Below are positions 5,943 through 55,384 of a stretch of 64,000 nt of DNA, piece by piece. A program made the position numbers and the translations under genes. The DNA lies in the NCBI GenBank assembly GCA_015143295.1, contig CM026571.1, positions 28,920,505 to 28,984,504 on the forward strand, read 5' to 3'. The DNA is from Tetracentron sinense. Lineage: Eukaryota > Streptophyta > Magnoliopsida > Trochodendrales > Trochodendraceae. Under the pieces are notes generated by a model that ran no database searches, had not been told where the DNA came from, and saw only the letters and a list, made by a program, of their open reading frames with translations. The stretch's first letter is position 1; the number at the start of each line of letters is the position of its first letter.

Positions 5943-8900
5943 TCAAAGCCAATCTCCTATGTATCTAATACTCATCGACTCTAGATGTTTCTCAAACACC
6001 TTCTGAGGTAGTGCTTTAGTAAATGGGTCTGCCATGTTGTCCGTTGACGCAATCTTGGATAACACAATGTCTCCTCTCTTGACAATGTCTCGAATCAAAT
6101 GGAATCTCCTTTCATTGTGTTTTGTCTTCTGATGTGCTCTAGGCTCTATGACTTGAGCTACAGCACCACTATTATCACAATAAAGTGTGATAGGAGATTC
6201 AATCGAGGAGACAACACCAAGTTCATGAATGAACTTCTTTATCCACACTGCTTCCTTTGCAGCATCACATGCAGCAATATATTCAGCTTCAGTTGTTGAG
6301 TCAGCAGTTGTTGATTGCTTACAACTCCTCCAACTAAATGCTCATTTTCCAAGAGTAAAGACAAATCCTGAGGTGGACTTTCTATCATCAACATCTGCCT
6401 GAAAATCTGAATTTGTGTACCCTACAACAGTCAGATATTCTCCACTATAAACCAAACAGTGGTGCATTGTCCTCCTCAAATACTTGAAAATGTGCTTAAC
6501 TGCTGTCCAATGCTCAGGACCCGGATTTGATTGATATCTACTCACGATACTCACTGCGTGACAAATATCAGGTCTTGTGCACAACATAGCATACATGAGA
6601 CTTCCCACTGTAGATGCATATGGGATATGACTCATCTGCTCTCTTTCATCATCAGTCTTTGGAGACTTTGATTTGAAGAGACTAATTCCATGTCTACAGG
6701 GTAAAAACCCTTTCTTGGAATTTTTCATGCTATATTTGCGCAAGATCTTGTCAATGTAATTGACTTGGGACAATCCCAGCATCCTTTTCTTTCGATCTCT
6801 AAACAATTTAAGACCAAGAATATAGGATGCTTCACCGAGGTCTTTCATTGCAAAGTTACATGACAACCAAATTTTAACAGTTGATAACATTCCTACATCA
6901 TTCCCAATGAGTAAAATATCATCTACATAAAGAACTAGGAAAGTTATTGCATTTCCACTGACCTTCTTATACACACATGCCTCATCCATGTTTTGTTGAA
7001 AACCAAACGATTTGATTGATTCATCAAAACGGATATTCCAACTTCGAGAAGCTTGCTTAAGGCCATAAATAGATTTTATCAATTTGCAGACTTTATTATT
7101 TTGGCCATGGAGTTCAAAACCTTCGGGCTGGTCCATATAAATATCCTCTTGAAGGTTTCCATTCAAGAATGCGGTTTTGACATTCATCTGCCATATCTCA
7201 TAATCATAAAAGGTTGCAATTGATAATAGAATTCTGATGGACTTTAGCATTGCTACTGGTGAAAAGGTTTCCTCATAGTCGATACTAGCTCTTTGACTAT
7301 ACCCTTTCGCCACAAGCCTTGCTTTAAAGGTCTCTACCTTTCCATCGGATCCACGTTTCCTCTTGTAGATCCATTTGCACCCAATAGGTCTAATTCCCTC
7401 AGGCTTTTCAACCAGGGTCCAAACACCATTCGAGTACATGGAGGCCATTTCAGATTCCATGGCCCTTTTCCAATTATCAGAATCAATATCACATATTGCT
7501 TCTTGAGAAGTGTAAGGATCATCGTCTAAGGAATCCGATTCCATAGAATATACCTCATGCTGATAAGACAATCTATCTGGAGGTCGACTGATCCTTGTAC
7601 TTCTCCTAGGCTCTTGTGTATTTAAAGGTTCAGTTAAGATAGGATTAACCATTGTTACTTTATCCTGACTTTGCTCCTCAAGATCAATTCTAAATCCATC
7701 TTTTCTATTGAGGATCATATCCTCTTCTAGAAAAATGGCATTCCTGCTCACAAACACCTTTTGTTCGCTAGGATTATAGAAATAATATCCATGAGTTTCT
7801 TTTGGGTATCCTATGAATAGACACTTTTCAGTCCTACTTTCCAACTTGTCGAAATTCTGCTTTCGTACATGAACAGGACAACCCCATACTCTGACATGCT
7901 TTAGACTAGGCTTTCGCCCCATCCATAGCTCAATTGGAGTTTTGGAAACAGACTTAGAAGGTACCCTATTCAATAGATAGATTGCAGTCTCTAATGCATA
8001 TCCCCAAAAAGATATTGGCAAATCAATATTATTCATAATTGAACGAACCATATCCAATAGGGTTCGATTTCTTCTTTCTGAAACACCATTAAGCTGGGGT
8101 GTTCCTAAGGGAGTCCATTGGGATAAAATTCCATTATCTCTAAGATAATTCATGAACTCATTCGAGAGGTACTCTCCTCCTCTGTCGGATCTGAGAGTTT
8201 TAATACATTTACCTGATTGCTTTTCTACTTCATACCGGAATTCTTTAAACTTTTCAAAAGATTCCGACTTGTGTTTCATTAGATATATGTAATCATATCT
8301 TGAAAAATCATATGTGAATGTAATGAAGTAGACAAAGCCACCTCTAGCTGAATGATTCATGGGTCCACATACATCAGTGTGAATTAATTCCAATATACTT
8401 GTGGCTCTCATTGGTTTGCCTGTAAATGGCCTTTTGGTCATTTTACCTTGCAAACAAGGTTCACAAGTTGGATAAGGTTCAACAGGTAAATGGTTTAAGG
8501 GACCATCCTTTACCAATCTATTGAGCCTATCCAAATTGATATGGCCTAATCTGAGATGCCATAAGTATGTTGGATTCACAGATTCTCTACCTCTTTTCTG
8601 AGGTGTCACACTGGTGGACTCTTTATCCTCAATGTTATTTACAGAATTTATTATAGGATCAAGATAATAAAGACCATTAGACAATGTGCTGGAAACAATA
8701 AAACTATTATTGTATTTGATAACTACATTAGCATCAAAATGCACTGAATAACCATTAACAATTAAACTAGAAACAGAAATCAAATTTCTACGCATGTCTG
8801 GCACATATAAGCAGTCTTTTAAAATCAAAATCCTATTAAAAGCAAATTCAAAAATATAAGTCCCGATGGCGATCGCAGTAACACTTGCTTCAGTTCCCAT

Positions 8901-8993
8901 CCTTCTTTTGACTTCCCTATCACTGAGCTTTCTGCTCTCCTGAAACCCCTGTAACATATTACAAATATGTGAGGTAGATCCACTATCTACACA
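5943..8993 (-). pseudogene. Copia (Angela/Tork-like) pol: PR-IN-RT-RNase H, broken
   Basis: The order PR, integrase, RT, RNase H is that of Ty1/copia. The protease motif VDSGSTSHIC is coded at 8961-8990, in the frame that continues into the long pol ORF; a TAG lies three codons upstream. Integrase shows the GHINLDRL zinc region, the DDE-type core (HTDVCGPM, SDRGGEYLS, GVSERRNRTLLD) and WGYALETAIYLLNRVPSKSV. RT shows QMNVKTAFLNG and LYVDDILLIG. RNase H ends the protein with YCDNSGAVAQ and KHNERRFHLIRDIV. A TGA after FTLGK (6342-6344) splits RNase H; the frame resumes in register to 5943. The conserved WGYALET and GYPKETHGYYFYNP segments are like Angela/Tork-type copia. The element is probably inactive. 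Confidence 0.9.
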
Positions 8994-10348: not shown

Positions 10349-10975
10349 AAAACCAGGGCTGCTGAAATCCATTTCCAGACCAGTCCGCTTTAGGAGAAAA
10401 TTAGTCTATGAATAAAGAAGAAATATAAATTTTGCAAAACATTAAAGTTGTTCCCCTTCAAATGACAAGTCTAACGCAAGTTGAATCGTCAAAATCTGAT
10501 AAATGAGTAAAAAGTTACTGCTAAAATACCGAAGACTGTTCCGAAAAAAAAATTTGGGGGAGGGGGCGATTGATCGCCCCTGAGGGGGATCGATCGCCCA
10601 AAACACCGTTTCGGAGACGGGCTACGTGTTTTTGTGTTTTTGAGTCCCTAGGACTCCCAATCTTATAAATACTCTTTAAACACGAGGATTGAGGCTTTCT
10701 AAGGCCTTCTAAACCTAAAAGAGTGAAAATAGAAAGTTTTTGAGAGATCAAAAAGAGAGAAACTAAAGGAGTCCAAAGGATTGGTCAAATAAAGGAGAAA
10801 AGAGGCGTGAAGATCAAGATAGAACCCTATTCACAAGGGATAGATCATAGGGAGACAATCAAGTGAGGTAAATAACATATCTAGTATTCCATATTTTGAA
10901 TATTAACCTAAAAGAATGAATAAAAAGAGAGTAAACCTAAGTAAAGATGTAAGAATATGTAGAATCAATGAACAT

Positions 10976-12355: not shown

Positions 12356-12476
12356 ATTGACGTAATGTATTTGGTTGTTTCCGCACTCTGATTATATATG
12401 TGAACTGGTGTATGAATCTGTAAAATGCATGTAATTTAATGTTCATTATATTGTTCACTATGGTCTGTTATATACG

Positions 12477-12517
12477 CGGAGTAACTCGTTACTCCGCCGA
12501 TGACTTTTGTTGTCGGC
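12477..12517 (+). promoter_or_regulatory. Tandem hairpin in LTR E
   Basis: Hairpin 1 is CGGAGTAACTCGTTACTCCG (12477-12496). Hairpin 2 pairs GCCGA (12496-12500) with TCGGC (12513-12517), extended by wobble pairs. The same pair of hairpins with other stem sequences is found in LTRs A, B, D and F at the same place, directly before the small ORF. Confidence 0.65.
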
Positions 12518-12647
12518 AGGTTCAGGTTCAGGTTCAGGTTTTGATATTTGTGCGCCCCGACTGTGGGAAAAAGATAAATACTTCGAGAAACCGGAAAGTG
12601 ATTATTCCGATGAAGAACGGGATCTTGATCGTTGGCCTTACTTTTGA
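12510..12647 (+). CDS. LTR micropeptide ORF, family E (no ATG)
   Basis: The frame reads LSAG, three GS repeats, FDICAPRLW, then an acidic tail with KYFEKPE and DLDRWPYF, and stops with TGA at 12645-12647, 45 residues. It aligns with the ORFs in LTRs B, D and F through FDICAP-x-x-W and with D through LDRWP/LDHWP. The position of the ATG in A, B and D is TTG here, with an in-frame TGA at 12501-12503, so it starts at a non-AUG codon or is decayed. See the findings for the codon pattern. Confidence 0.45.
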   Translation: MSAGSGSGSGFDICAPRLWEKDKYFEKPESDYSDEERDLDRWPYF

Positions 12648-12917: not shown

Positions 12918-13195
12918 AAAACCCACCAAGGTGAACTTCCACCTAATGAGTTCTCTAGAAATCTCCTCCTCAGACCAACATGCAACCTTCATACCATTAA
13001 TAAGCGAGGGATCCTCAAAGGAAAGCGCCAAACCACTACTCTTTGATCGATTGGACAAAAACAAACTACTCCAAGGTTTAGGAAGAGACCTGGGCAAAGG
13101 GGGCCCCACCGCTGGCTGCCCCTCGCCAATCTCGGCCATGACCGATGAACAACAACCCCTACATCGAAATCGCCTCCAAAACCCTAAATTTAAAA
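12918..13195 (-). pseudogene. LINE ORF1 start with DUF4283-like domain, split by LTR E
   Basis: On the minus strand an ATG at 13139 opens MAEIGEGQPAVGPPLP, followed by SLINGMKVACWSEEEIS and RWKFTLVGF. The W-x-x-x-LVG motif with this N-terminal layout is typical of the DUF4283 region of plant L1-type LINE ORF1 proteins, which precedes a CCHC knuckle and binds the element RNA. The upstream 13140-13195 would be the LINE 5' UTR. The frame is cut at 12918 by LTR E. Beyond the LTR, 10353 leftward continues GF with about 16 open codons (RNPTINLTTTKYLEKW) before a stop. Confidence 0.5.
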
Positions 13196-18057: not shown

Positions 18058-18286
18058 TGTAGCGCCTCAGAACTTTTCGTGCCTAATGAACAGTGTTCTC
18101 GTAGTCAATTTGTCTTGCACATAGTATAATTAATAAATAAAGAAGATTTTGAAATGTCAAAAATGTTCCTTTTCGAATGACGAGTCCAACGCAAGTTGAG
18201 TCGTCAAAATCCGACGAACGAGTCAAAATTTATAGTCGAAATACCAAAGTGAAAAAAAAAAGAGAAAACAATAAAATCTGGGAAGT

Positions 18287-19818: not shown

Positions 19819-19855
19819 CTGAGTATTCCATACTCAGCCGTACTTTTATGTCGGC
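19819..19855 (+). promoter_or_regulatory. Tandem hairpin in LTR D
   Basis: Hairpin 1 is CTGAGTATTCCATACTCAG (19819-19837), a perfect 7-bp stem. Hairpin 2 pairs GCCG (19837-19840) with CGGC (19852-19855), plus AC/GT. The ATG at 19848 lies at the edge of the 3' arm of hairpin 2. Confidence 0.65.
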
Positions 19856-19970
19856 AGGTGCACGGGTCCCTTTTGACATTTGTACCCCGGGTCCTTGGGT
19901 CGAGGAGGACTACGGCGAGGAAGAATCATATGGGGACTTAGACCACTGGCCCCACGGGGGTGATTATTGA
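19848..19970 (+). CDS. LTR micropeptide ORF, family D
   Basis: ATG at 19848 to TGA at 19968-19970, 40 residues. It begins MSAGARVPFDICTPGPW, followed by VEEDYGEEESYG and DLDHWPHGGDY. It is acidic, with one Cys and two Trp. It aligns with the ORF in LTR B (MSA...FDVCAPGPWMEEEYVEE), E (FDICAPRLW, DLDRWP) and F (FDICAPRPWIEKEYFEEP). No known domain, signal peptide or membrane segment is visible. In a full element the LTR is transcribed at the 5' end, so this would act as an upstream ORF before gag, or sit in an intron (donor-like site at 18861). Confidence 0.55.
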   Translation: MSAGARVPFDICTPGPWVEEDYGEEESYGDLDHWPHGGDY

Positions 19971-20252
19971 GAGTAAGAGAGTTGTGAGGTCTCTCATTTT
20001 GTATTTTAATAGGTGGGCATGTCCACCATAGACTTGATGTATGATGTTTATGTTCACTTAGAATACTATTTTGAGTTATAGAAGAAAAGAAAAAGTTAGT
20101 TCATGCTTCCGCACTCATGATTAACTTCCGCACTCTGATAATTGGCATTATTGTATTATGTTTACCTTGTTCATCACAGGATGGTTTGATAGGTATGATT
20201 AGTCACCTCTAAAGTATCCCTTAACTCCCAGGGGGTATTTTGGGGCGCGAAA

Positions 20253-23031: not shown

Positions 23032-23092
23032 AGGTTCACAATTCGTTACATATGATCTGGGTCCTTGGATCAAGGCGGTTCATGGAGAGTAG
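23024..23092 (+). CDS. LTR micropeptide-position ORF, family A
   Basis: ATG at 23024 to TAG at 23090-23092, 22 residues: MSAGSQFVTYDLGPWIKAVH and GE. It keeps MSAGS and GPW at the positions seen in B and D, but FDICAP is altered and the acidic tail is lost. The 3' LTR has the counterpart at 37487-37555 starting MTAGS. It may be a shortened or decaying version of the peptide in LTRs B, D, E and F. Confidence 0.4.
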   Translation: MSAGSQFVTYDLGPWIKAVHGE

Positions 23093-24869: not shown

Positions 24870-25085
24870 TGTAGAGCCCCGGACCTTTTCACATTTAATG
24901 CATGACACTTTCGTTGCCATTTTGCCTTAAAGAGGTATAATTAATAAATAAGGAAGAAATTGGAAATTTCAACATGCCAGAAATGTTCCTTTTCGAAGTA
25001 CGAACCCAACGCAAGTTGAATCGTCAAAATCGGACGAACGAGTCAAAAGATATGGCCAAAACAGTCTGGACCTGCAGGCAATCGG

Positions 25086-25275
25086 TAGCTCGGAAGGCGC
25101 TAAGGACGTAGCTCGCAAGGCGCTAAGGACGTAGCTCGGAAGGTACTAAGGACGTAGCTCGGAAGGCGCTAAGGACGTAGCTCGGAAGGCGCTAAGGACG
25201 TAGCTCGGAAGGCGCTGAGGACGTAGCTCGGAAGGCACTAAGGACGTAGCTCGGAAGGCACTAAGGACGTAGCTC
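25086..25275. repeat. 23-bp tandem array, 8 copies, 5' LTR B
   Basis: The unit is AGCTCGGAAGGCGCTAAGG plus ACGT, with C/G and G/A variants. The 3' LTR has nine copies (31025-31237). Confidence 0.9.
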
Positions 25276-25530
25276 TGACAACGTGCTCTGATAAGGCACA
25301 GACAACGCATAGACAACGTACTCTGATAACGTATACGTTGTGCATCCGTTGTGCAACAGACAACGGGTCCGTCGTGCAGTAGACAACGTGTACGTTGTAC
25401 AGCTCACAACGGGCACGTTGTACATAACACAACGGACAACGAGTTCGGCACTATTCACAGCACAACGTGTTCGGCACTATTCACAGCACAACGTGTTTGG
25501 CACTATTCACAGCTCAACGTGTTCGGAACT
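25276..25530. repeat. ACAACG palindromes and 26-bp array, 5' LTR B
   Basis: Repeated ACAACG motifs, some paired as ACAACGTGTACGTTGT, lead into about three 26-bp units containing GTTCGGCACTATTCACAGC and ACAACGT. The 3' LTR has about eight units. Open frames on both strands here arise from the repeat. Confidence 0.85.
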
Positions 25531-26569
25531 CGCGTTTTTGCAGAAATTTCAGTAAGGGTATTATGGTCTTTTGGTCGGTTCACTCTTACCTTAAGAGTTT
25601 AACCCGAGCCTTTAGGGCTTCATTTCGACACTTAGAGAGATTGGGAGATAAGAAGAGAGGAGAGGGCGATTCCTAAACCTAGGGTTTCCATTTTGGAGAG
25701 AAATCAAGGGGTTTGTGAACCCACACTCAACTCAAGCCCATTTTTCTTCAAGATCAAGGCACAAACTCGTGAGGAGCATCTCCTCAAGCTAGGGCAGCAA
25801 CTCACGGTCGTTTTTGGAAGGGGATTTCTTCCTCACTTGATCAAGGTCGGTACTTTTTACTACCCTCCTAGTTATAGCTTCCCTTTTTCCTTTGTTTCTC
25901 CTTGTTTTCCTTCACTTATATGTGTGTTATGAGATTGGTGGTATGAATGGTGAATAGAGATGGATGTTGGCGAATGGATGCCGTGTGGATGATGTGATGA
26001 ACGAATGGGAAAGGGCATTGTACTAATAATGAACATACAAGTGTGATGTGAGCATAACCCACCTAGAAAAGCAAGATCTAGGTTTAAGTGAATAATGAAC
26101 ACACCCCATGTTTGATGAAATGCCAATGTGAACAAAATAAATGATGGGAACCCATGCTTAATTGCTCTTGAAATTTGTTAGGGTTCATGATAGTGTGTTT
26201 CTTACATCTCTTAAAATGCGTAGATTATTACTCACTTAAATTGTCATATGCTATGCTTTGTGAATTACCCCAAATTGCCATATTTAATTCCAAATGCAAG
26301 TATGCACACGATCTCACGAGCACGCATGAAATGACGTGATTTACCGATGTTTTAAGTATGGGACGTAGAGGTGGGGCATATCCTAAGATATGTTTCACTT
26401 CGCTTTTGACAAGGGCAAGACAATCATGCATTGCATAGGGAAAGTTCTCCCATCCCCTCGCATGGCATGCATAGCATCGCATGACACGCATAGCATAGCA
26501 TGGCATGACACGCATTGCATAGCATCACATGACACGCATAACTCTGCATGGCATGACACGCATGGATGC

Positions 26570-26660
26570 TAGTTGCGACGGGCTATGAACGGCAACTAGG
26601 CATTCACATTCTGCATATAGGGTACTAGTTGTGACGGACTATGAACGACAACTAGGCATG
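26570..26660 (+). repeat. Two CTAGTTG hairpin repeats, 5' LTR B
   Basis: CTAGTTG(C/T)GACGG(G/A)CTATGAACG plus (G/A)CAACTAGGCAT: a 7-bp stem CTAGTTG/CAACTAG around a conserved loop. The 3' LTR has four copies (32678-32882). Confidence 0.8.
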
Positions 26661-26980
26661 TGAACATGTTTAAATTCTGAATAAGCAAGCATGATACATG
26701 CATGACACGCATAGTATGACATGACACGCATGATACAAGCATGACAAGCATGACACGGTAAATAAGTTCCCAAATTACGCGAAGGGTATTTTAAGTCAAG
26801 TCAAGCGCATGGGGTTTTTCAAGGATTTTATCGGCTTTTCATGAACTGCAAGTATGATTATGAATTTCCTTATTTCTTTGTATGATATTAACTGTTCCTG
26901 ATTTATATATATATCTATATTGTTTCCTGTGTATGCATTGCTATCTCTTGCTATAACTCTTGGTTAGTAGTTAGTACCCG

Positions 26981-27018
26981 CTGAGTATTCCATGCTCAGC
27001 CGTACTTCTTATGTCGGC
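26981..27018 (+). promoter_or_regulatory. Tandem hairpin in 5' LTR B
   Basis: Hairpin 1 CTGAGTATTCCATGCTCAG (26981-26999; one U-G pair replaces the U-A of LTR D). Hairpin 2 pairs GCCG (26999-27002) with CGGC (27015-27018). The ATG at 27011 lies between the loop and the 3' arm. Confidence 0.65.
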
Positions 27019-27130
27019 AGATTCTGAGGGAGCTACTGCTCCATTTGATGTTTGTGCTCCTGGTCCATGGATGGAGGAGGAGTACGTCGAGGAGCCTTTG
27101 GAGGAACCTCCCGTAGAGGGTTATCAGTAG
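27011..27130 (+). CDS. LTR micropeptide ORF, family B (5' LTR)
   Basis: ATG at 27011 to TAG at 27128-27130, 39 residues: MSADSEGATAPFDVCAPGPW, then MEEEYVEEPLEEPPVEGYQ. It is strongly acidic (about a dozen Glu/Asp, no Lys or Arg). FDVCAPGPW aligns with FDICTPGPW (D), FDICAPRLW (E) and FDICAPRPW (F). No known domain. The 3' LTR copy at 33225-33344 differs by two residues (D4G, T8A), so both LTRs keep the frame open. Confidence 0.6.
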   Translation: MSADSEGATAPFDVCAPGPWMEEEYVEEPLEEPPVEGYQ

Positions 27131-27435
27131 GTGGTGTTAGATTCTGAGTGAATTAGCTGTGGGTGAGCATGAGTGACTATATCCATGTATTTTGGCGGCA
27201 TGTCCGCACTTTCTTTGTTTTGATTTCTTTGTATTAAAACTTGGACCATGTGTATATACTTAGAGGTTTGTTAGACTTCCGCTGTATTTTATAGTTATGC
27301 TTCCGCTGTTATCCTCTATTGTATATGCTCTGTGGGTGTTTTGCAGGTGGTTTGTCAAGCAAGTCATGTAAGTCATAATTTAGTCGTCCACGATTCACTC
27401 TAACTCCTAGGGTGGGTTTTGGGTCGCGACAGAAG

Positions 27436-27447
27436 TGGTATCAGAGC
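27436..27447 (+). other. Primer binding site of element B
   Basis: TGGTATCAGAGC (initiator tRNA-Met type), four bases after the LTR end at 27431. Confidence 0.95.
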
Positions 27448-27739
27448 TTAGGCTTTAGGTCTCTAGGGTCACTTAGAATCTTATACCACGGCTTGACAAG
27501 AGCATATGTTAGGAAACAAGTTAGGAAGGAAGTGAGTCGGGAACGAGTTTGGTTCCAAGTTTAAGACTAAACTTTAGTCTTAGTCTAAAATGGTTGCTTT
27601 AACCAAGTACGGTCCTAGGTACGCCAGAACACTAAAGTATAAGTATAATGTGATGAATACTCTGATGACTTGATGTGATGGGTATTAGTATTATACAACT
27701 AATACAAATTGAATTATTGTGAAATGGCATTGAAATAGT
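27448..27739 (+). other. 5' leader of element B
   Basis: Non-coding. It leads straight into a protease/RT frame; no gag is present at this position, where one is expected. Confidence 0.7.
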
Positions 27740-29530
27740 GTGATCCAAGTTGGAAGCCACGAGTTGATGGTTGATCTCATCGTCCTTGGATTCCAAGACT
27801 TTGATGTTATATTGGGAATAGATTGGTTAGCAGCACATCATGGGCATGTAGCTTGCTTTGAGAAAATGGTACTCTTCAAGCCAGTAGAAGGAAAACCATT
27901 CCACTTTCGCGGGTTGAAATGTAGATATATTGCTCGTTTTGCGGCGTTGAGCTTAGCTAAACCCGAGGCAAAGGACTCATCGACTATTCCGGTTGTGAGT
28001 GAGTTCCTGGATGTATTTCCAGAGGAGTTGCCAGGATTGCCTCCAGACAGGGAGATTGAGTTTGTGATCGAGCTTGCACCAGGCACAGCTCCTGTTTTCA
28101 GGGCTCCGTATAGAATGGCCCCTATTGAACTCAAAGAGTTAAAGACCCAGTTTGAAGAATTACAAGGTCTTGGTTTCATTCGACCAAGTGTCTCACCGTG
28201 GGGTGCCCCGGTGTTGTTTGTTAAGAAGAAAGATGGCTCGATGCGGATGTGCGTCGATTACAGGCAATTGAACAAAGTCACTATAAAGAATAGGTATCCC
28301 TTGCCTAGGATTGATGACTTGTTCGATCAGTTGAAGGGAGCGAGATTTTTCTCGAAGATAGACCTTCGATCGGGTTATCACCAGTTGAAGATTAAGGTGG
28401 AAGATGTTCCCAAAACTACTTTCAGGACTCGGTATGGACACTACGAGTTCTTGGTGATGCCTTTTGGACTCACGAACGCGCCGGCAGCCTTTATGGATTT
28501 GATGAACCGGGTGTTCCGGCCATATCTTGATAGGTGCGTGATTGTATTTGTTGATGACATTTTGGTCTATTCCCAGACATGGGAAGATCACACACGCGAC
28601 CTATGCCTTGCTTTGGAAATGCTAAGAGAGCACAAGGTATATGCCAAACTTAGCAAGTGTGAGTTTTGGTTAGAAGAGGTGGCATTCCTAGGCCACGTTG
28701 TTTCTGCAGAAGGTATCTCGGTAGATCCAAAGAAGATCGAAGCAATTATGAGTTGGGCGAGGTCCAAGAGTGTTACCGAGATACGCAGCCTTCTTGGGTT
28801 GGCAGGCTACTACAGGAGATTCGTAGAGGGTTTCTCTAGCCTTGCAGCACCGCTCACTTACCTGACAAGGAAGAACGCCAAGTTTGTATGGAGTGATAAG
28901 TGCGAGATCAGTTTCACGGAACTGAAGAAGAGGCTTACTACAGCCCCTGTCCTTACTGTGCCATCTGGACCTTATGGGTATGAGGTATATAGTGATGCCT
29001 CACACGTTGGACTTGGGTGTGTACTCATGCAGCACAAGAAAGTCATTGCCTATGCATCGAGGCAATTGAAGGAGCATGAGAAGAATTACCCCACGCACAA
29101 CTTAGAGCTTGCCGCAGTCGTGTTTGCACTCAAGATCTGGCGACATTTCTTATACGGGGTGGAATTCTATGTGTATACGGACCACAAGAGCCTCAAGTAC
29201 CTCTTTTCCCAAAAGGAATTGAATCTAAGGCAACGGCGTTGGATGGAATTTTTGAAAGACTATGATTGTATCATTCAATACCACCCGGGTAAAGCAAATG
29301 TAGTGGCTGATGCTTTGAGTAGAAGACCTCCGGGGTTATTAGCATGCATGTTAGTGCAGGAATGGAAGCTACTTGAAGACTTGGCAAATCTGGACATTAG
29401 TGTGAATGACTCTGTTCGTAGTCCTATCTTGGCAAATGTCACGGTTCGGCCATACATTATAGATTTGATCCAAGAATACCAAGCCACGGATGCTGAATTG
29501 TTGGCTTATCGGGACAAGGAAGTTGCTTAG
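27740..29530 (+). pseudogene. Gypsy (Tekay/Del-like) pol fragment: PR end, RT, RNase H
   Basis: An uninterrupted 596-residue frame. It starts within the protease, after the catalytic DTG (which is missing): [13 protein letters not shown] at about residues 26-38. RT follows with [39 protein letters not shown] and the catalytic FVDDILVYS at about residue 270. RNase H has [13 protein letters not shown] (about 416), [10 protein letters not shown] and [10 protein letters not shown], ending at [10 protein letters not shown]. The linker after it stops with TAG at 29528-29530; integrase and chromodomain are absent. The sequence is Ty3/gypsy and most like the Tekay/Del chromoviruses. The frame lacks any stop although it is not a full protein, which implies recent insertion. 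It could not act alone. Confidence 0.9.
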
Positions 29531-29773
29531 GAGAAGTTGTTGCCCTTAAGAAGCAACTAAGGAGTTAGCCTTAGACCATAACCAGTTGCAACACAACCAA
29601 CATCGCATCTTGGCTTCGCTAGGAACCTTAGAGTATATTATTATGCTATGGTATGTGTATCTTGATGTATGTTCTAGACTTTGATAAATACTTACTATTA
29701 TGAAAATGCAATATCGGATTTTGATGGGATTCAAGTTAGACTCATGCTTTGCTATCGTCCTCAGGAGTAAACC
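29531..29773 (+). other. Duplicated leader segment inside element B
   Basis: GAGAAGTTGTTGCCCTTAAG onward corresponds to 24834-24864 plus 33650-33843 of element A, which lie just before gag there. The gag leader therefore sits after pol in B, showing the internal region was reordered. Confidence 0.7.
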
Positions 29774-30406
29774 ATGAGACGTGGCGATCAGGGTCGTGGA
29801 TACCACACTAGGAGGGGTGGAGTATCTCCTCCTCCATTGAGGGATGAGCAGCCTGATCTCACTCAGGTCTTGGGATCCATAGCAGAGACACTAGCAATAC
29901 TTGCCACTAGGCAGCCCACTACCCCCATTCCTACGGCGGTACTTGTACTTATCCCTACACATCATGCCACAGGAAGTGAGGCACTTTGGAGGATGAGGCC
30001 CCCGGTGTTTTATGGTGATATGGACCCATTGGTCGCAGAAGCATGGGTTAGGTACCAGTCCTCTAGACATATGCAGGTACGGAGTCCTCCCACTGCACCA
30101 CAGGCTTCTCTTTCGGTTGCTCCACCGGCATCGCACACGGCTACCGTGCAGCTACCCCGCCTCGCAGTATCTCAGGCAACAGGATATGCGCCCTCCACCT
30201 ACTCTTACGAGATATGTACCCTTTGTGGGAGGAGGCATGTGGCCAGAGAGTGTAGGAGAATCTCCGATGGATGTTTCCACTGTGGTCGCCAGGGCCACCT
30301 GATCAAGAATTGTCCCAGCTGTCAGATGCCACCTTATTCTCGGGGAAGTAGGCCCACGGTTAGGCGGTCACCTCCGCAGGGCTCTACACACGCATTAAGC
30401 CCCTAG
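29774..30406 (+). pseudogene. Gag of element B with central deletion
   Basis: ATG at 29774: MRRGDQGRGYHTRRGGVSPP, then DEQPDLTQVLGSIAETLAIL, as in the element A gag. At PLVAEAWVR the frame jumps directly to a Pro/Ser-rich linker, so the capsid-like core (present in A as WAAFMMEGEADHWW...) is gone. It ends with two CCHC-like blocks: CTLCGRRHVARECR and a complete knuckle CFHCGRQGHLIKNC. The frame stays open to the stop at 30404-30406. It lies downstream of pol, opposite to the normal gag-pol order. A small RNA-binding protein might be made, but assembly of a particle is unlikely. Confidence 0.8.
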
Positions 30407-30797
30407 CAGTCCACACAGCCCCCTTACTAGGCTAACCAGAGACAAGCCTTTGCCACTCCAGGATAGAATGCTCAGGCACCAAAGGATATGGCATGAGGAT
30501 GTGAGAGGGAGAAGAAATTTTTTTTTTTGTGTAGAAGGGAATGTAATTTGTGTTTTTTCATGGGCAGTCAGTTGCCACTTCTATGTAATTGTGCTACCTT
30601 ATGTTATGAATGTTTTTCCAGCTATTTAGAATGATGTTGAGTTTTATGAGAAAACTAGGTGCCTCGCCGATAAGTGAGTGCCTAGCCTTATATTGATTAA
30701 TAGAGGATTATCATATCGTTCAGTAGGAAAGGTTAAGCATGGGGAAGTATCCTCGATTGATTTAGTAACGCCCTAATTTCGAGGACGAAATTCCTAT
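30407..30797 (+). other. 3' non-coding region of element B
   Basis: No coding frame. It ends with the TTTCGAGGACGAAATTCC motif just before the polypurine tract, a sequence common before the 3' LTR in plant Tekay/Del-type elements. Confidence 0.7.
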
Positions 30798-30810
30798 AAG
30801 GGGGGGAGGA
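30798..30810 (+). other. Polypurine tract of element B
   Basis: AAGGGGGGGAGGA immediately before the TG of the 3' LTR. Confidence 0.95.
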
Positions 30811-33194
30811 TGTAGAGCCCCGGACCTTTTCACATTTAATGCATGACACTTTCGTTGTCATTTTGCCTTAAAGAGGTATAATTAATAAATAAGGAAGAAA
30901 TTGGAAATTTCGACATGCCAGAAATGTTCCTTTTCGAAGTACGAACCCAACGCAAGTTGAATCCTCAAAATCGGACGAACGAGTCAAAAGATATGGCCAA
31001 AACAGTCTGGACCTGCAGGCAATCGGTAGCTCGGAAGGCGCTAAGGACGTAGCTCGCAAGGCGCTAAGGACGTAGCTCGCAAGGCGCTAAGGACGTAGCT
31101 CGGAAGGCACTAAGGACGTAGCTCGGAAGGCGCTAAGGACGTAGCTCGGAAGGCGCTAAGGACGTAGCTCGGAAGGCGCTAAGGACGTAGCTCGGAAGGC
31201 ACTAAGGACGTAGCTCGGAAGGCACTAAGGACGTAGCTCTGACAACATGCTCTGATAAGGCACAGACAACGCATAGACAACGTACTCTGATAACGTATAC
31301 GTTGTGCATCCGTTGTGCAACAGACAACGGGTACGTCGTGCAGCAGAAAACGTGTACGTTGTACAGCTCACAACGGGCACGTTGTACAAAAGACAACGGA
31401 CAACGAGTTCGGCACTATTCACAGCACAACGTGTTCGACACTATTCACAGCACAACGTGTTCGGCACTATTCACAGCACAACGTGTTTGGCACTATTCAC
31501 AGCATAACGTGTTCGGCACTATTCACAGCACAACGTGTTTGGCAATATTCACAGCACAACGTGTTCGGCACTATTCACAGCACAACGTGTTTGGCACTAT
31601 TCACAGCTCAACGTGTTCGGTACTCGTGTTTTTGCAGAAATTTCAGTAAGGGTGTTATGGTCTTTTGGTCGGTTCACTCTTACCTTAAGAGTTTAACCCG
31701 AGCCTTTAGGGCTTCATTTCGACACTTAGAGAGATTGGGAGATAAGAAGAGAGGAGAGGGCGATTCCTAAACCTAGGGTTTCCATTTTGGAGAGAAATCA
31801 AGGGGTTTGTGAACCCACACTCAACTCAAGCCCATTTTTCTTCAAGATCAAGGCACAAACCCGTGAGGAGCATCTCTTCAAGCTAGGGCAGTAACTCACA
31901 GTCGTTTTTGGAAGGGGATTTCTTCCTCACTTGATCAAGGTCGGTACTTTTTACTACCCTCCTAGTTATAGCTTCCCTTTTTCCTTTGTTTCTCCTTGTT
32001 TTCCTTCACTTATATGTGTGTTATGAGATTGGTGGTATGAATGGTGAATAGAGATGGAAGTTGGCGAATGGATGCCGTGTGGATGATGTGATGAACGAAT
32101 GGGAAAGGGCATTGTACTAATAATGAACATACAAGTGTGATGTGAGCATAACCCACCTAGAAAAGCAAGATCTAGGTTTAAGTGAATAATGAACACACCC
32201 CCTGTTTGATGAAATGCCAATGTGAACAAAATAAATGATAAATTAAGGGAACCCATGCTTAGTTGCTCTTGAAATTTGTTAGGGTTCATGATAGTGTGTT
32301 TCTTACATTTCTTAAAATGCGTAGATTATTACTCACTTAAATTGTTATATGCTATGCTTTGTGAATTACCCCAAATTTCCATATTTAATTCCAAATGCAA
32401 GTATGCACACGATCTCACGAGCACGCATGAAATGACGTGATTTACCGATGTTTTAAATATGGGACGTAGAGGTGGGGCATATCCTAAGATATGTTTCACT
32501 TCGCTTTTGACAAGGGCAAGACAATCATGCATTGCATAGGGAAAGGTCTCCCATCCCCTCGCATGACATGCATAGCATCGCATGACACGCATAGCATAGC
32601 ATAGCATAGCATGGCATGACACGCATAGCATAGCATCACATGACACGCATAACTCTGCATGGCATGACACGCATGGATGCTAGTTGCGACGGGCTATGAA
32701 CGGCAACTAGGCATTCACATTCTGCATATAGGGTACTAGTTGTGACGGACTATGAACGGCAACTAGGCATGTCATTCTGCATATAGGGTACTAGTTGTGA
32801 CGGACTATGAACGGCAACTAGGCATGTCATTCCGCATATAGGGTACTAGTTGTGACGAACTATGAACGGCAACTAGGCATGTGAACATGTTTAAATTCCG
32901 AATAAGCAAGCATGATACACGCATGACACGCATAGTATGACATGGCACGCATGATACAAGCATGACACGATAAATAAGTTCCCAAATTACGCGAAGGGTA
33001 TTTTAAGTCAAGTCAAGCGCATGGGGTTTTTCAAGGATTTTATCGGCTTTTCATGAACTGCAAGTATGATTATGAATTTCCTTATTTCTTTGTATGATAT
33101 TAACTATTCCTGATTTATATATATATATCTATATTGTTTCCTGTGTATGCATTGTTATCTCTTGCTATAATTGTTGGTTAGTAGTTAGTACCCG

Positions 33195-33232
33195 CTGAGT
33201 ATTCCATGCTCAGCCGTACTTCTTATGTCGGC
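33195..33232 (+). promoter_or_regulatory. Tandem hairpin in 3' LTR B
   Basis: Same pair as in the 5' LTR: CTGAGTATTCCATGCTCAG (33195-33213) and GCCG...CGGC (33213-33232). Confidence 0.65.
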
Positions 33233-33344
33233 AGGTTCTGAGGGAGCTGCTGCTCCATTTGATGTTTGTGCTCCTGGTCCATGGATGGAGGAGGAGTACG
33301 TCGAGGAGCCTTTGGAGGAACCTCCCGTAGAGGGTTATCAGTAG
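33225..33344 (+). CDS. LTR micropeptide ORF, family B (3' LTR)
   Basis: ATG at 33225 to TAG at 33342-33344, 39 residues, MSAGSEGAAAPFDVCAPGPW then the same acidic tail as at 27011. Position 4 is Gly here, the residue shared with A, D and E, so this copy keeps the MSAGS consensus. Confidence 0.6.
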   Translation: MSAGSEGAAAPFDVCAPGPWMEEEYVEEPLEEPPVEGYQ

Positions 33345-33649
33345 GTGGTGTTAGATTCTGAGTGAATTAGCTGTGGGTGAGCATGAGTGACTATATCCAT
33401 GTATTTTGGCGGCATGTCCGCACTTTCTTTGTTTGATTTCTTTGTATTAAAACTTGGACCATGTGTATATACTTAGAGGTTTGTTAGACTTCCGCTGTGT
33501 TTTATAGTTATGCTTCCGCTGTTATCCTCTATTGTATATGCTCTGTGGGTGTTTTGCAGGTGGTTTGTCAAGCAAGTCATGTAAGTCTTGATTTAGTCGT
33601 CCACCATTCACTCTAACTCCTAGGGTGGGTTTTGGGTCGCGACATTAGT

Positions 33650-33843
33650 CTTAGACCATAACCGGTTGCAACTCAACCAACCTTGTATCTTAGCTTCGCT
33701 AGAAACCTTATTATATTATGGTATGTATATCTTGATGTATGTTATATACTTTGATAAATACCTGCTGTTATGAAAATGCAATGTCGAATAATGATGGGAT
33801 CCGAGTTAGACTCATGCTTTGCTATCGTCCTCAGGAGTAAACC
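33650..33843 (+). other. Gag leader of element A, after element B
   Basis: Continues the element A leader interrupted at 24869. It contains TCTTAGACCATAACCGGTTG, shared with 29566 in B. No frame. Confidence 0.65.
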
Positions 33844-34905
33844 ATGAGATATGGCAATCGGGGTCCTGGATACCACACTAGGAGAGGTGGAGTATCTCCT
33901 CCTCCATCAAGGGATGAGCAGCCTGATCTCACCCAAGTCTTGGGATCCATAGCAGAGACACTAGCAGTGCTTGCAGCTAGGCAACCCTTTACCCACAATA
34001 CTACTACGGCACCTGTACCTCCTCCTGCACATTATGCCACAGGAATTGAGGCATTTCGGACGATGAGGCCCCCGGTATTTTATGGGGGCATTGATTCATT
34101 GGTTGTAGAAGGATGGATCAGGCAACTAGAGAAACTGTATTCAGTATGGTAGCCTACTGAGGTAGAGAGAGTCACTTGGGCCGCCTTCATGATGGAGGGT
34201 GAGGCCGATCACTGGTGGAGATCTGCAGTCAGAACAAGAGACTTGACTCGAGCAGATCAAGAATGGACTTGGGAAGAGTTTCTTGATGTTTTCTACAAGA
34301 AATACTTCTCGGTGGGAGTTAGAGAAAAGAAAGAACTGGAGTTCACTACCTTGGACCAGGGGAACATGACAGTGGTAGAATACGAAGCCAAGTTCTCTGA
34401 ATTGTCAAGGTTCGCCCCATATCTGATAGCCACAGAGGCAATGAAGGCCGAGAAATTTGAGAGGGGATTGCAGGCCTACATCAAAGACAGGGTCTCCATT
34501 TTCAGGCATGAGACCTACGCCGAAGTTGTGGATAAGGCCCAGTTGACAGAAACGAATGTTGAGGAATTCTACAAGAGGAGAGAACTTTTGAGAGGCCAGT
34601 CCAGTAACACAACCACAGAGGAGGGCCAGAATGACTCCATACCAGTTCTCTGGACCTACGCAGGTGCAGACCCATTCTCTTGGACCCCAAGCCCCTCGCC
34701 CTACTATTATGCAAGTCACTTGACAGGTACAATCAGCATCTTCTACATTTGTGTTCGAGTTCTGTAGTTACTACGGAAGAAAGCATACTGGGGATTGTCG
34801 GAAGCTCAAGGGTGAATGTTTCCATTATGGTGATCAAGGCCACTTGATCAGAGGTTGTCCTCACCGTCCACCTCCAGCTCAACGTCAGGGAAGCAAGCCT
34901 CAGTA
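33844..34905 (+). pseudogene. Gag of element A, broken
   Basis: ATG at 33844: MRYGNRGPGYHTRRGGVSPP, then IRQLEKLYSVW and a TAG at 34150-34152. The same frame resumes as WAAFMMEGEADHWWRSAVRT, WEEFLDVFYKKYFSVGVREKK, LEFTTLDQGNMTVVEYEAKF and FERGLQAYIKDRV, the retrotransposon Gag core. A frameshift near 34620 moves the rest to another frame, which carries the zinc region CSYYGRKHTGDC and CFHYGDQGHLIRGC. In both, a Tyr stands where the second zinc-binding Cys belongs (compare CTLCG and CFHCG in B). There is no pol after it, so element A is a gag-only, non-autonomous derivative. Confidence 0.8.
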
Positions 34906-35321: not shown

Positions 35322-37882
35322 TGTAGAACCCCAAAATTTTTGTATGTGTCTCGGGATGCGTGTCAAGGCATGAAGCCTTGGTAATGTTTAAAATTAAATA
35401 AAAGAAGATAATGGGTGTTCATTTTATGAGGGAAAAGCCGTAAGGTTCTTTTCCTTAAGCCTATGAGGGTGAAAAACAAAAGGAAAGAGGGTTAGAATAG
35501 GAGTGGGATAAGTCTAAGTAGTGGAATTGAGTGAAAAATGGACTTAGTGTCAAAATTTGCAGAGCACTGATCGCTTGGTCCAAGTAACGATTGCTTGGTC
35601 CAAAACCGAGCGATCGGTATCTATCGACTGGTCCAAAAATTTGGATGGGAAAAAATTCCAGAGAGGGTGTTTTCAACCGATCGCTCGATCATAAACACTG
35701 ATCACTCGGTCATAAGCTCCGATCGCTCAGTCTTTCGCGTTTTTGCTGAATCATTAAGGGTAAATGGGTCTTTTGACTCCCCTTTTCTCTATAAAAACCC
35801 CAATTTATGGGTTTGGGATCTCATAAACCCTCAAGCTCAAGATTTAAAAAATTGGAAAGGAGAAAGGAGAGAAGTTAGGGCTTGCTCAAAAAAGGCTTTT
35901 GATTTAAGGAGTAGATCAAGATCAAGGTTGACCCTCCCCATAAAGCAAGAACTCCTCCATTCTTCAAAGAGGCATTCTTCTTCAAGCTTGGAACCCTAAT
36001 CAAAGGTTTCCTCCAAGATCAAGCATTGATCTTCAAGTGTGCTTCCTCCTCAAGCTTGAACTCCAAATCAAATGAGTTTTCTTCCAAACCAAGGAGTGAT
36101 CCTCAAGGTTAGTACACCCTCCTAACTAGCTTAATACTAACCTAGTTCTTCTTTCAAAAATGATGTTCTTGAGTTTGTTTACCATTTTCTTTTAAATACA
36201 ACTACTATCCCTAATTGAACAAGATAAATAGAAATGGTGTGAATGTGTGGGGAGGTATGGATTGATAGTGGTTTAGGCGATTGGATGTCGTGTTGTTGTG
36301 GTGAATGTGTGTTGGAAAATGGTGGAAGCGCAATGTACTCATAATAGATGCACCCCTTGTGTTTGATGAAATGTATGAACTAGGAACTTGAATCAATTAG
36401 ACTATGAATGTGTTGCACTCCAAGTGTTTGATGAGATGCATAAATGAGAAATTGACAAATTAAAGACTACTATGAAAGCATGTTTTGGGTAATTTTTCTA
36501 AAAAGATAACCATGATCCAATACTTTATATGTTATGCCTAGATCCTCACATGATTAGATTGAGAATTGAAATGCTATGTGTTATTCTCATGCCCATGTCA
36601 TATTGGTTATCACACATTGCTACACACAAGCACGCATGCATGCATTAACCAAGTTTTCTAAAGTATATATATATGACATACCAAACAAGAACAAGCTATG
36701 TGATTCTTGAAATGAATGATAAAGCTGGACATCGGGCCGATCAAGGGTAGGGCATATCCCCCGGATATGTTATACCTGGCTCACAAGAAAAACAAGCAAG
36801 TTAATTTACTAATGTGTTCCGTCCCATTATATTTCGGGCATTAGTAAAGCAAGTATAAGGATACTAATGTTTTCCGTTCAATCATAGTCCAGGCATTAGT
36901 AAACAAGTGAAACGCTAGTGTATTCCATTCCACCATAGTCCGGGCACTAGTCAAGTCAAGACAAGATGCTAATGTGTTCCGTTCCATTATAGTCCAGGTA
37001 TTAGAAAAGCAAGACAAGAAGCTAGTATGACTGTCCAAGTCATAGTTCGGGTACTAGTTAAACAAGACATGAATACAAGACAAGAACCTAGTATGTCCGT
37101 CCATTTCATAGTTTGGGTACTAGTCAAACAAGACAAACAAGAATGACAAGATCCTAGTACGTCCGTCCATTTCATAGTTCGGGTACTAGCTAAATGATTT
37201 AAGTGAAATTAAGAATCTTATAAGATGTGTATAGTAACCAGAAGATACATGGGATGCATAAGGAACTCACGAGGTAATTGAAACAAGATTTGTTAAAGCA
37301 TGAACATGTGACATGATTTATTATATGATATCCAAGATTTTACATTCGTTGTTTTGTCTTAGCTTCCACACTCTGATTATGTTGTGATGATGATGAATTG
37401 TACCACGCATGACTTATTATTGTTATTACTATTGTTAGCTAGTAGCTTGTACTCGCTGGGTATTCCATACTCAGCCGTACATAATGATGACGGCAGGTTC
37501 ACAGTTTGTTGCATATGCTCTGGGTCCTTGGATCAAGGCGGTTCATGGAGAGTAGGAGCTTGCTTGGGATTGTTGTCCGGATGTTAGGAGTCTTGGGATG
37601 TGGCCAATGGTTGGGTTGAGTGAGAGAGACATGTATTTTGTGATTTTCTTTTGGGGATTTTCATGTAGGCTTGAGTTGATAACTCAAGTGTTGGAGTCTT
37701 TTGTACTTATTGTAGTTTTTATTAAGTTGTTTGTTTGTGTTAACACTTGGAAGAACATTTATAAAGAAGAAATTTTCAGGTTCACTATTTGTCATGCTTT
37801 GGATACTCCTTGCTGGATGATTTAAGGCTAAGTCACATCGCCAAAGTATCCTAACTCCTAGGGGTTATTTTGGGGCGTGACA
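35322..37882 (+). mobile_element. 3' LTR of gypsy element A
   Basis: It starts TGTAGAACCCCAAAA and ends TTTTGGGGCGTGACA at 37882, 2561 bp, followed by ATTAT. It keeps the promoter region that the 5' LTR has lost: GATCGCTCGGTC-type repeats (35570-35735) and a TATA box TATAAAAA at 35790-35797. A donor-like AAG|GTTAGTAC lies at 36107. The hairpin array is at 36803-37190 and the tandem hairpin at 37456-37494, where CTGGGTA pairs with TACTCAG through one G-U. The small ORF (MTAGSQF...GPW) is at 37487-37555. Confidence 0.9.
35790..35797 (+). promoter_or_regulatory. TATA box of 3' LTR A
   Basis: CTCTATAAAAACCCC fits a plant TATA box. The corresponding sequence is deleted from the 5' LTR of the same element. 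Confidence 0.6.
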
Positions 37883-53356: not shown

Positions 53357-55168
53357 TGTAGAGACCCAAAACTTAGTTGTCTTTAAACTTGTGCAAATTG
53401 AATGAAAATCTTGGTATTCGTGTCATGCATTTAATGCATTGTTACTTTGTGAGTTTAAGTTAAATTAAAAATGACTAGGTATAGGAATTGCAGAAATTAT
53501 AGGAAGAGTGTGGTTATAGCAAAAACATAAATTATCAAATTTTGAGATGGTTTCTCCCGAAAATGGATGTTTATGGGTTAAATAAAGATATGTGATCTTT
53601 ATGAGATTTTATTATTACGTTGAGTGGTTTAATTGACTATCGAAAATTTTACATCAAACATAATTTTCCACTTTTAGCCTAAAAACTGGAAAATGAGATT
53701 TTAATTTATTAGAAATTTGATTTTCTAAGTATTTTTATTGAATCCAAATGGAGGGTACTTCTTTATTTTAATTTAAAACTTAAAGTTTAATTGTTTTAAA
53801 GGAAAATAAGTGTGTTGTTGACTAGTGCTGAAGAGAAAAAATGTGTTGTTGCTGTTGTGTTGTAGAGAAAAAAATGATGCAAAGAAGAACAGAGCAACTC
53901 GGTCGACCGACATCCAAAGTTGTTTGACCGACCTTCGAAAAAAATGTAGTATAGATAGTGAGATACAGCTCGGTCGATCCCAATTTCCAAGTCGGTCGAT
54001 CGACTGACTTGCGCACAGAGTGTTAAAAACATGACTTTTCTAGAAAATTTAAAGGGTATAGGACTCTAAATCCTATATATAGTTATTAAATCGTGGGTTT
54101 AGGATTTCATAACCATTCTAAGAGTTTGAGAGATCTAAAAAGAGAGAAACCTAGGGTTTTGCAATGAGTTTTGCTTGGGGAAGGAGAAAAGCTTGGAGAT
54201 CAAAGGCTAAGCCCATTCAAAAGCGATTGATTGTAGAAAAACGGTCGAGAGAGGTTTGATATACTGTCTTGTTAATAGTAATATGATAATATTAAGAACT
54301 TATTATGATTGATTAAAAGTATATTAAGATATAATGATTATGCAACATGTTATGATCTTGTATAGGGCATGAGATTCAAGAAGGGAATGGATTATATGAA
54401 GAATATTATGATATGACTATTGTTTTATGATTTTAAATTGATAATGATGATGAAAATTGTTATATGATAATGAGAATAATGATTTAGGGTTTCAGATATA
54501 TATATATATATATAGAATGATGATGATGAAATTGTGATTATGGATTTATGATCATGGAGTTGTGATTATAGAATTGTGATTATTGAATTGTTATACTATG
54601 ATGTTGATAACCCTATTAACATGATGTGAATGAAATATCCTACATGAATGATAAGTATTATGATATGATGCTCCCATGCTAAATTATGATTAATTATGCA
54701 TGTATGATGATTGAATTTCAGATAGACAAATACTTAGATGATGATATTAATAATCTCGAATTCTGTAACCATCATTGTGTGAGCAACTTTAGTGGAATTT
54801 CGATGGTGAGATATCAAAATTTAAGGGATAACCTAGATGAAAGTCAATTGTAATACTCAAGCACATTGTTCACAGCATGGTAAGTTGTTTAATTCTACAC
54901 AAGTCTCCCATGATCATGCATGAATACGAACTAACTGGTATAGAATTTGGTATGGACTTTGGAATCTGGTTGGACCTTGGAATTGGTATGAACTAACATG
55001 TTACTATTATGATTTTACATGCATATGCACATGTATCACCAAGTCTACACAAGTCATAAGTCTGAATATGCTTACATGTTTTCGCACTCTGATTATGTAA
55101 TTTATGGTATGTATGATATGACTGAAAATGCATGATATGATATATTGTTAACTTACTTTATATAAAGT

Positions 55169-55205
55169 GAGCATTTTCAATGCTCAACCGAATTGTTATT
55201 TTCGG
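55169..55205 (+). promoter_or_regulatory. Tandem hairpin in LTR F
   Basis: Hairpin 1 GAGCATT-TTC-AATGCTC (55169-55185) has C-G where D has T-A. Hairpin 2 pairs CCGAA (55188-55192) with TTCGG (55201-55205). Same place as in A, B, D and E. Confidence 0.6.
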
Positions 55206-55384
55206 AAGGTTCAAGTTTTGACATCTGCGCACCAAGGCCTTGGATTGAGAAAGAATACTTCGAGGAGCCCGAAGATGAGTACTACCAGGAGGGAAAGATC
55301 GAATTTGGATCATTATCCGTATTATTGATCCCCTGGCTAGTTATTTATCTTTACTATTATAATGGGAGAGGGAGGCGTAGATGA
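55199..55384 (+). CDS. LTR micropeptide frame, family F (no ATG)
   Basis: The frame reads FSEGSSFDICAPRPWIEKEY, then FEEPEDEYYQEGKIEF and on to the TGA at 55382-55384. FDICAPRPWIEKEYFEEP aligns with B, D and E. The ATG position is TTT, so the start is lost or non-AUG, and the last 25 residues (LLIPWLVIYLYYY) are unlike the others, suggesting a frameshift after about 55310. Confidence 0.45.
   Translation, partial: FSEGSSFDICAPRPWIEKEYFEEPEDEYYQEGKIEFGSLSVLLIPWLVIYLYYYNGRGRRR

Follow-up and report, generated by a model that had tools for sequence, protein, structure and literature searches.

A coding frame under selection in the LTRs of plant Ty3/gypsy chromoviruses is probably a spliced terminal exon of gag

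LTRs are usually treated as control regions of the elements that they flank. Passages of a 2025 review (PMC12786077) describe plant LTR elements as generally free of introns, name Ogre and EVADE as notable exceptions, and report a splicing event yielding a short GAG (shGAG) in EVADE (ATCOPIA93) and in BARE1, both of the Ty1/copia type. Parts of a plant survey and of the same review (PMC6317226, PMC12786077) also describe a plant element intron that lies between portions of the polyprotein and is removed in a subset of transcripts. Here we consider a small reading frame that recurs in the LTRs of several gypsy families in one stretch of 64,000 nucleotides, referred to below as the window. Judging from the arrangement of the sequence, it is quite likely that this coding frame is a terminal exon residing in the LTRs of chromodomain Ty3/gypsy elements, with gag being spliced to one of two partners, pol or the 3' LTR.

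The initial annotation of the window had reported the small frame in five full copies, and all of them (B twice, D, E and F) were found where it had placed them (Table 1). The shortened frame attributed to the LTRs of type A is also there and ends in GPWIKAVHGE. A degenerate pattern for the motif, TTYGAYRTHTGYDCNCCNNNNCYNTGG, has five matches in the window and none in any of 100 shuffles. The frame had further been supposed to start with MSAG, and this is only partly correct, since the ATG is present in the B and D types, whereas E reads TTG TCG GCA and F reads TTT TCG GAA, both without ATG.

Concerning the surroundings of these copies, positions 24870-34767 form a rearranged nest, in which LTR B1 with its primer-binding site (PBS) is followed by a protease/RT open reading frame without gag, by gag-like pieces (29565-30406), by LTR B2 and by a further gag-like piece (33645-34767). 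In the window no PBS of the form TGGTATCAGAGC follows the end of LTR E (near 12918) or that of LTR D (near 20250), and these two may therefore be 3', solo or truncated LTRs. A further conserved block, about 96 nt long (CCAACGCAAGTTGAATCGTCAAAATC) and with 73-83% identity to the reference copy, is found in the left part of several LTRs, and the B LTRs contain tandem repeats with units of 23 and 26 nt (25062-25567 and 31003-31661), the numbers of which differ between copies. An open reading frame of 871 aa on the minus strand (6342-8957) resembles, by eye, part of a copia-type polyprotein.

Table 1. Positions of LTR exon copies, hairpins and neighboring features in the window. The caret marks a presumptive splice border.
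Feature	Position	Strand	Remarks
LTR copy B1	24870..27431	+	left end approximate; followed by PBS TGGTATCAGAGC at 27436-27447
gypsy ORF, 596 aa	27740..29530	+	protease end, RT, RNase H; adjoins LTR B1
LTR exon copy B1	27021..27130	+	AG acceptor CGGCAG^AT to TAG stop; peptide ..SEGATAPFDVCAPGPWMEEEYVEEPLEEPPVEGYQ, stop; motif FDVCAPGPW at 27044
LTR exon copy B2	33235..33344	+	motif FDVCAPGPW at 33258
LTR exon copy D	19858..19970	+	peptide ..ARVPFDICTPGPWVEEDYGEEESYGDLDHWPHGGDY, stop; motif FDICTPGPW at 19872
LTR exon copy E	12520..12647	+	peptide ..SGSGSGFDICAPRLWEKDKYFEKPESDYSDEERDLDRWPYF, stop; without in-frame ATG; motif FDICAPRLW at 12540
LTR exon copy F	55209..55384	+	AAG acceptor; without in-frame ATG; continues beyond usual stop, decayed end; motif FDICAPRPW at 55217
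LTR exon copy A1	23034..23092	+	shortened; peptide ..SQFVTYDLGPWIKAVHGE, stop
LTR exon copy A2	37497..37555	+	shortened
Hairpin, B1	26980..27000	+	GCTGAGTAT-TCC-ATGCTCAGC; just 5' of B1 acceptor
Hairpin, B2	33194..33214	+	5' of B2 acceptor
Hairpin, D	19819..19837	+	5' of D acceptor
Hairpin, E	12476..12497	+	GCGGAGTAA-CTCG-TTACTCCGC; arms unlike B and D
Hairpin, F	55168..55186	+	TGAGCATT-TTC-AATGCTCA; 5' of F acceptor
Block of about 96 nt	24966-25061, 30907-31002, 18146-18241, 10431-10526		

The frame is abundant outside the window. In the window's own genome (1.161 Gb in 1479 contigs) the motif pattern matches 11,867 times (5952 + 5915), and a reversed control pattern has no match in the same 1.161 Gb. 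Because the motif pattern itself fixes amino acids, LTRs were drawn a second way that is blind to the frame, using the LTR end together with the primer-binding site GACANNNNTGGTATCAGAGC; this gave 5702 matches, and the first 30 on contig C1 were used. The frame is open through the motif in 27 of these 30 5' LTRs, a sample in which one family contributes many of the rows and certain LTRs are represented twice (as with L009/L036 and L027/L039). It is located some 310-430 nt upstream of the LTR end. The three exceptions are the decayed copies L043 and L044 and a copy without the frame, L051; premature stops occur in some copies, such as L037 and L038. The encoded peptides diverge strongly among families, as illustrated by FDVCAPGPWVEEEYVEEPLEEPPVEGYQ, FDLCGSEPWVEEEYYNPEPSIDHYQDDGLLDKRPNFDFC and VDVLDPEPWVEEEYVEEREPPIPWQSQEDGDLDVWPYLDYC, each followed by a stop, and by LDICDQDPWIEEDYG...DSDHWPHGGDY with its stop. 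PW(V/I/E)EE(E/D)Y is common to most families, and several share a DxWP end. The pattern TTYGAYRTHTGYDCNCCNNNNCYNTGG is a specific one, since it has only three matches among the 2.9 million contigs of IMG/VR, none of them with the tail. An RT-based search of IMG/VR produced two stretches, neither of which was confirmed, and patterns of the PWVEEEY type have no match in IMG/VR or in the GTDB genome set. Three tail peptides have no match in Pfam at E up to 10, and six peptide strings do not occur in the literature text that was searched.

Once inserted, a single copy should decay neutrally. We determined dN/dS from Nei-Gojobori counts on plain nucleotide alignments of 27 of the 30 frame-blind copies (L043, L044 and L051 were left out). 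The in-frame ratio is 0.231 for the 273 pairs with less than 60% identity, 0.115 for the 17 pairs at 60-80% and 0.190 for the 52 pairs at 80-97%. The same pairs served as controls when read in the two other frames and in the three frames of the 150 nt that follow the stop, and the values were then 0.72-1.72. The frame is under purifying selection as protein, and in one frame only. The initial annotation had claimed such selection from the variation at third codon positions; this variation is genuine and recurs in the frame-blind genome sample, and the claim is supported by ratios of 0.12-0.23 in frame compared with those of the controls.

Additional measures bear on the same point. Four family pairs that we chose differ at 22 first, 14 second and 47 third codon positions (P = 1.1e-5), and the same four pairs have no alignment gap in 450 exon sites and 40 in 745 downstream sites. 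When all frame-blind pairs with at least 60% identity are considered, 22 of 49 exon gaps are divisible by three, compared with 125 of 671 downstream; the remaining 27 of the 49 are not, so that frame-breaking gaps exist in some copies. A scan for 3-periodicity along the LTR (about 1.4 kb) in seven pairs placed the exon window strongest in four and second in L005/L023. In L045/L061 it was fourth, and the two best windows overlap the end of the exon. The four best windows of E/L025 do not include the exon; conspicuous among them is one at -160 that has two gap columns. It is very improbable that these patterns reflect nothing but constraint on the nucleotides (a promoter or a structure in the R region) or shared ancestry, with the frame as a by-product. 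The LTRs are indeed related by descent and the same block carries a paired hairpin, but third positions vary freely and the amino acids are kept, the ratios in the very same pairs are 0.72-1.72 for the wrong frames and for the flank downstream, and the 40 downstream gaps of the four chosen pairs have no counterpart in the exon.

The initial annotation had taken the frame for a free micropeptide that starts with MSAG, and this part of its proposal is not supported. Between the preceding stop and the motif, an in-frame ATG is absent in 24 of 64 copies and present in 40 (L043 excluded), and coding begins, in constant phase, at an AG that looks like an acceptor. Common to the families are a T-rich tract, judged by eye, and this AG, usually in the form TCGGCAG; in the B and D types the ATG is 10 nt before the acceptor, and in many copies in-frame stops lie just upstream of the AG. 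The distance from the AG to the motif is 5, 8, 14, 20 or 23 nt, a single constant phase in all 52 copies that could be parsed (out of 64 rows, 12 being unparsed and L043 excluded), whereas the hairpin upstream is separated from the AG by 17, 18, 19 or 20 nt, covering all residues modulo three. Since the phase is constant after the AG and the spacing is free upstream of it, the AG is the border between phase-free and translated sequence, and it looks like a 3' splice site. In L004, L033, L034, L058 and L059 the AG has been lost from its usual place. We conclude that the frame is probably a spliced terminal exon, belonging to gag, and not the gene of a free peptide.

Two other arrangements of the border were considered. 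The AG as a splice donor is ruled out, for B1, L017, L018 and L025 have (C/T)AG^AT and not GT. An upstream exon inside the LTR itself is unlikely, as the 3-periodicity scan of seven pairs shows no clear second coding window.

The position of the frame, about 310-430 nt before the end of 5' LTRs, places it in the 5' leader (R-U5), where it might be a conserved-peptide uORF, translated from an ATG or a near-cognate start, that regulates the translation of gag through its peptide or through being translated itself. Such uORFs are known in plants, an ATG is directly upstream (MSAG) in copies of the B and D types, and 40 of the 64 copies have some in-frame ATG. Nevertheless, we regard this as distinctly unlikely, because no start codon is conserved. 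The 24 copies that lack an in-frame ATG include all five of the E type (E, L004, L025, L034 and L050), F and nine of the L011 type, and the codon found at the place of the ATG differs by family (ATG, TTG, TTT, TCA, ATA). In L063 a TGA immediately precedes TCG GCA^GGT, so that no near-cognate start is left before the motif. Moreover, phase is held from the AG onward and not from a start codon.

The hairpin that precedes the acceptor has a stem of 8-9 pairs, the arms of which vary by family (GCTGAGTAT/ATACTCAGC, GCGGAGTAA/TTACTCCGC, ACTGAGTGT/ATACTCAGT and TGAGCATT/AATGCTCA). In 20 chosen rows of 31, pairing is kept in 95.6% of cells and three of eight pairs have changes on both sides; this percentage is somewhat flattering, since the 11 rows left out (five with no mismatch, three with one and three broken, L013, L017 and L030) include the broken ones. 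None of 500 shuffles reaches the covariation score or the count of 8 cells in which both sides have changed, the number of pairs with changes on both sides was reached by 167 of the 500, and the support from this covariation is weakened by the relatedness of the rows and by our choice of them. Slid controls pair in 20-41%. We infer that the stem may hide AG dinucleotides that follow the branch point and precede the real acceptor. In E-type copies such as L004 and L034, CCGA and TCGG (CCGA..TCGG) flank the T-rich tract and might pair as another small stem just ahead of the acceptor. A stem of this kind (CCG..CGG) is present in several families, not in all, and was rejected.

The elements that carry the exon are plant Ty3/gypsy chromoviruses, with the order gag-PR-RT-RH-IN and a chromodomain ending the integrase. 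L066, an element of the B type, has a gag ORF with capsid and CCHC, followed by protease, RT, RNase H, integrase and chromodomain. Retrotrans_gag, CCHC, RVP_2, RVT_1, RNase H, Integrase_H2C2 and SH3_Tf2-1 score above their cut-offs in L066, and two domains fall short of theirs, rve with 24.8 bits for a cut-off of 32.6 and Chromo with 24.4 bits for one of 25.1. These elements may be of the Tekay/Del lineage, a name that comes from the earlier reader and from the length of the LTRs, and the PBS is likewise presumed to be of the initiator-Met type.

In all four elements that were fetched, gag ends with ..DDVVQG and runs into a phase-1 donor, GTGCAAG^GTACGC or GTCCAGG^GTACAT. The donor is followed by an intron that contains stops and is 124-181 nt long, and next by an acceptor, again in phase 1, just before the protease, (T/A/S)LL(V/I).. 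The same gag donor was found in 9 of 14 further loci, the other five giving no match to the search expression, and the donor context has 3457 matches in the genome with up to one mismatch. According to a rough consensus score in two elements, this donor ranks third of 334 and fifth of 318 GT sites, a good place without being the top one. The predicted spliced junction of gag and pol is present at 44 places in the genome (up to three mismatches, seven of them exact), part of which may descend from a single intron-less founder. Four of the junction copies (L070-L073, over 3 kb) align to L066 minus its 142-nt intron (1789-1930), with the leader kept. Intron-less genomic copies arise when spliced RNA is reverse-transcribed, and gag-pol splicing is therefore real: the intron is spliced and its donor is active.

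Other potential splice sites are found in the leaders. Those of L036, L034, L040, L048, L053, L062 and L063 have, a few nt 5' of the gag ATG, a sequence resembling an acceptor (..TCTCAG^GA). In some leaders there are also sequences resembling a donor, AAA^GTAAGT for instance, roughly 100 nt downstream of the PBS, which suggests a possible 5'-UTR intron; the stretch in question is kept in the copies L070-L073 that have lost the gag-pol intron.

It seems fairly likely that, in a large group of plant chromoviruses, an alternative last exon of gag resides in the 3' LTR, and that the choice of acceptor leads either to Gag with a conserved acidic tail or to Gag-Pol. The donor at the end of gag would be spliced over pol to the acceptor of the exon copy in the 3' LTR, and the product would be a Gag isoform ending in VVQ-G-(S/T/A)..FDICAPGPWxEEEY..stop. 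The LTR exon would thereby supply the proper acidic C-terminus of Gag, a tail of about 20-45 residues. If the nearer pol acceptor were chosen instead, Gag-Pol would be made, and the splice choice would set the ratio of Gag to Gag-Pol. The donor of gag and the acceptors of pol and of the LTR are all in phase 1, so that gag joins either of them in frame. A phase match alone is a one-in-three event; it gains weight because gag has no shared stop before the donor in the four elements and because the LTR exon needs an exon upstream of it. This same lack of a shared stop makes the LTR exon a plausible C-terminus of Gag, and the tails that gag would acquire by reading into the intron are different in all four elements. 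That the LTR has no clear second coding window adds further to the case for gag.

Several observations run against the joining of gag to the LTR. The exon is present in the 5' LTR too, and in L066 the intron to be skipped would measure 5.9 kb, which is long for a plant. The predicted junction between gag and the LTR exon, in its B-type and E-type sequence, has no genomic match with up to three mismatches in a search that skips common words. This absence from genomic DNA is weak evidence, since an RNA of this kind would be without PPT and U3 and would rarely be copied back.

The evidence for the acceptor and for the exon is independent of the donor used, and the terminal exon might be spliced to a first exon other than gag, namely a leader exon, one that ends at a donor in pol, or host exons upstream of the insertions. 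Other GT sites, including one in the leader, score at least as high as the gag-end donor, and the acceptor-like site just 5' of the gag ATG could belong to such an arrangement. We consider it unlikely. Inspection of 11 leaders by eye revealed no shared ATG that could serve in a first exon from the leader, and a first exon from the host would not maintain selection within the element. The gag-end donor, on the other hand, is phase-matched and known to be used, and it is preceded by no shared stop in gag.

If gag is indeed joined to the LTR exon, Ty3/gypsy elements would possess a splicing-based switch between Gag and Gag-Pol, and plants would possess a protein-coding LTR. A selected exon in thousands of LTR copies, together with the gag-pol intron, would explain how Gag and Gag-Pol come to be made in differing amounts, and a read across the junction would give a simple handle on the expression of these elements.

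As for earlier reports, passages of the 2019 plant survey that names Tekay (PMC6317226) mention no gag-pol intron and no LTR-coded protein for this lineage, the words "reading frame" and "peptide" are absent from the accessible text of a paper on conserved LTR structure (PMC3601003), and a literature search at the level of titles and abstract openings found no report of an LTR-coded protein in plant elements. The present elements resemble the Tekay/Del chromoviruses in their order of Gag, PR, RT, RH, IN and chromodomain and in their long LTRs. They would resemble EVADE and BARE1 in that alternative splicing, as outlined in the review passages (PMC12786077), yields a Gag-only mRNA apart from the full-length one for Gag-Pol. 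Unlike those elements, they are Ty3/gypsy chromoviruses in which Gag-Pol is itself the spliced product, and the proposed end of the Gag-only form is a selected LTR exon, whereas in EVADE and BARE1 it is a frameshift with a stop soon after the junction. The known intron within a plant polyprotein differs from the present one, which separates gag from protease, belongs to a chromodomain element and has a second candidate acceptor in the LTR. The nearest functional parallels are sag of MMTV and nef of HIV, proteins coded by the 3' LTR and made from spliced mRNA. Both are accessory proteins in their own right, from animal retroviruses, whereas here the tail would be joined to Gag, and the parallel is one of arrangement, with no sequence relation claimed.
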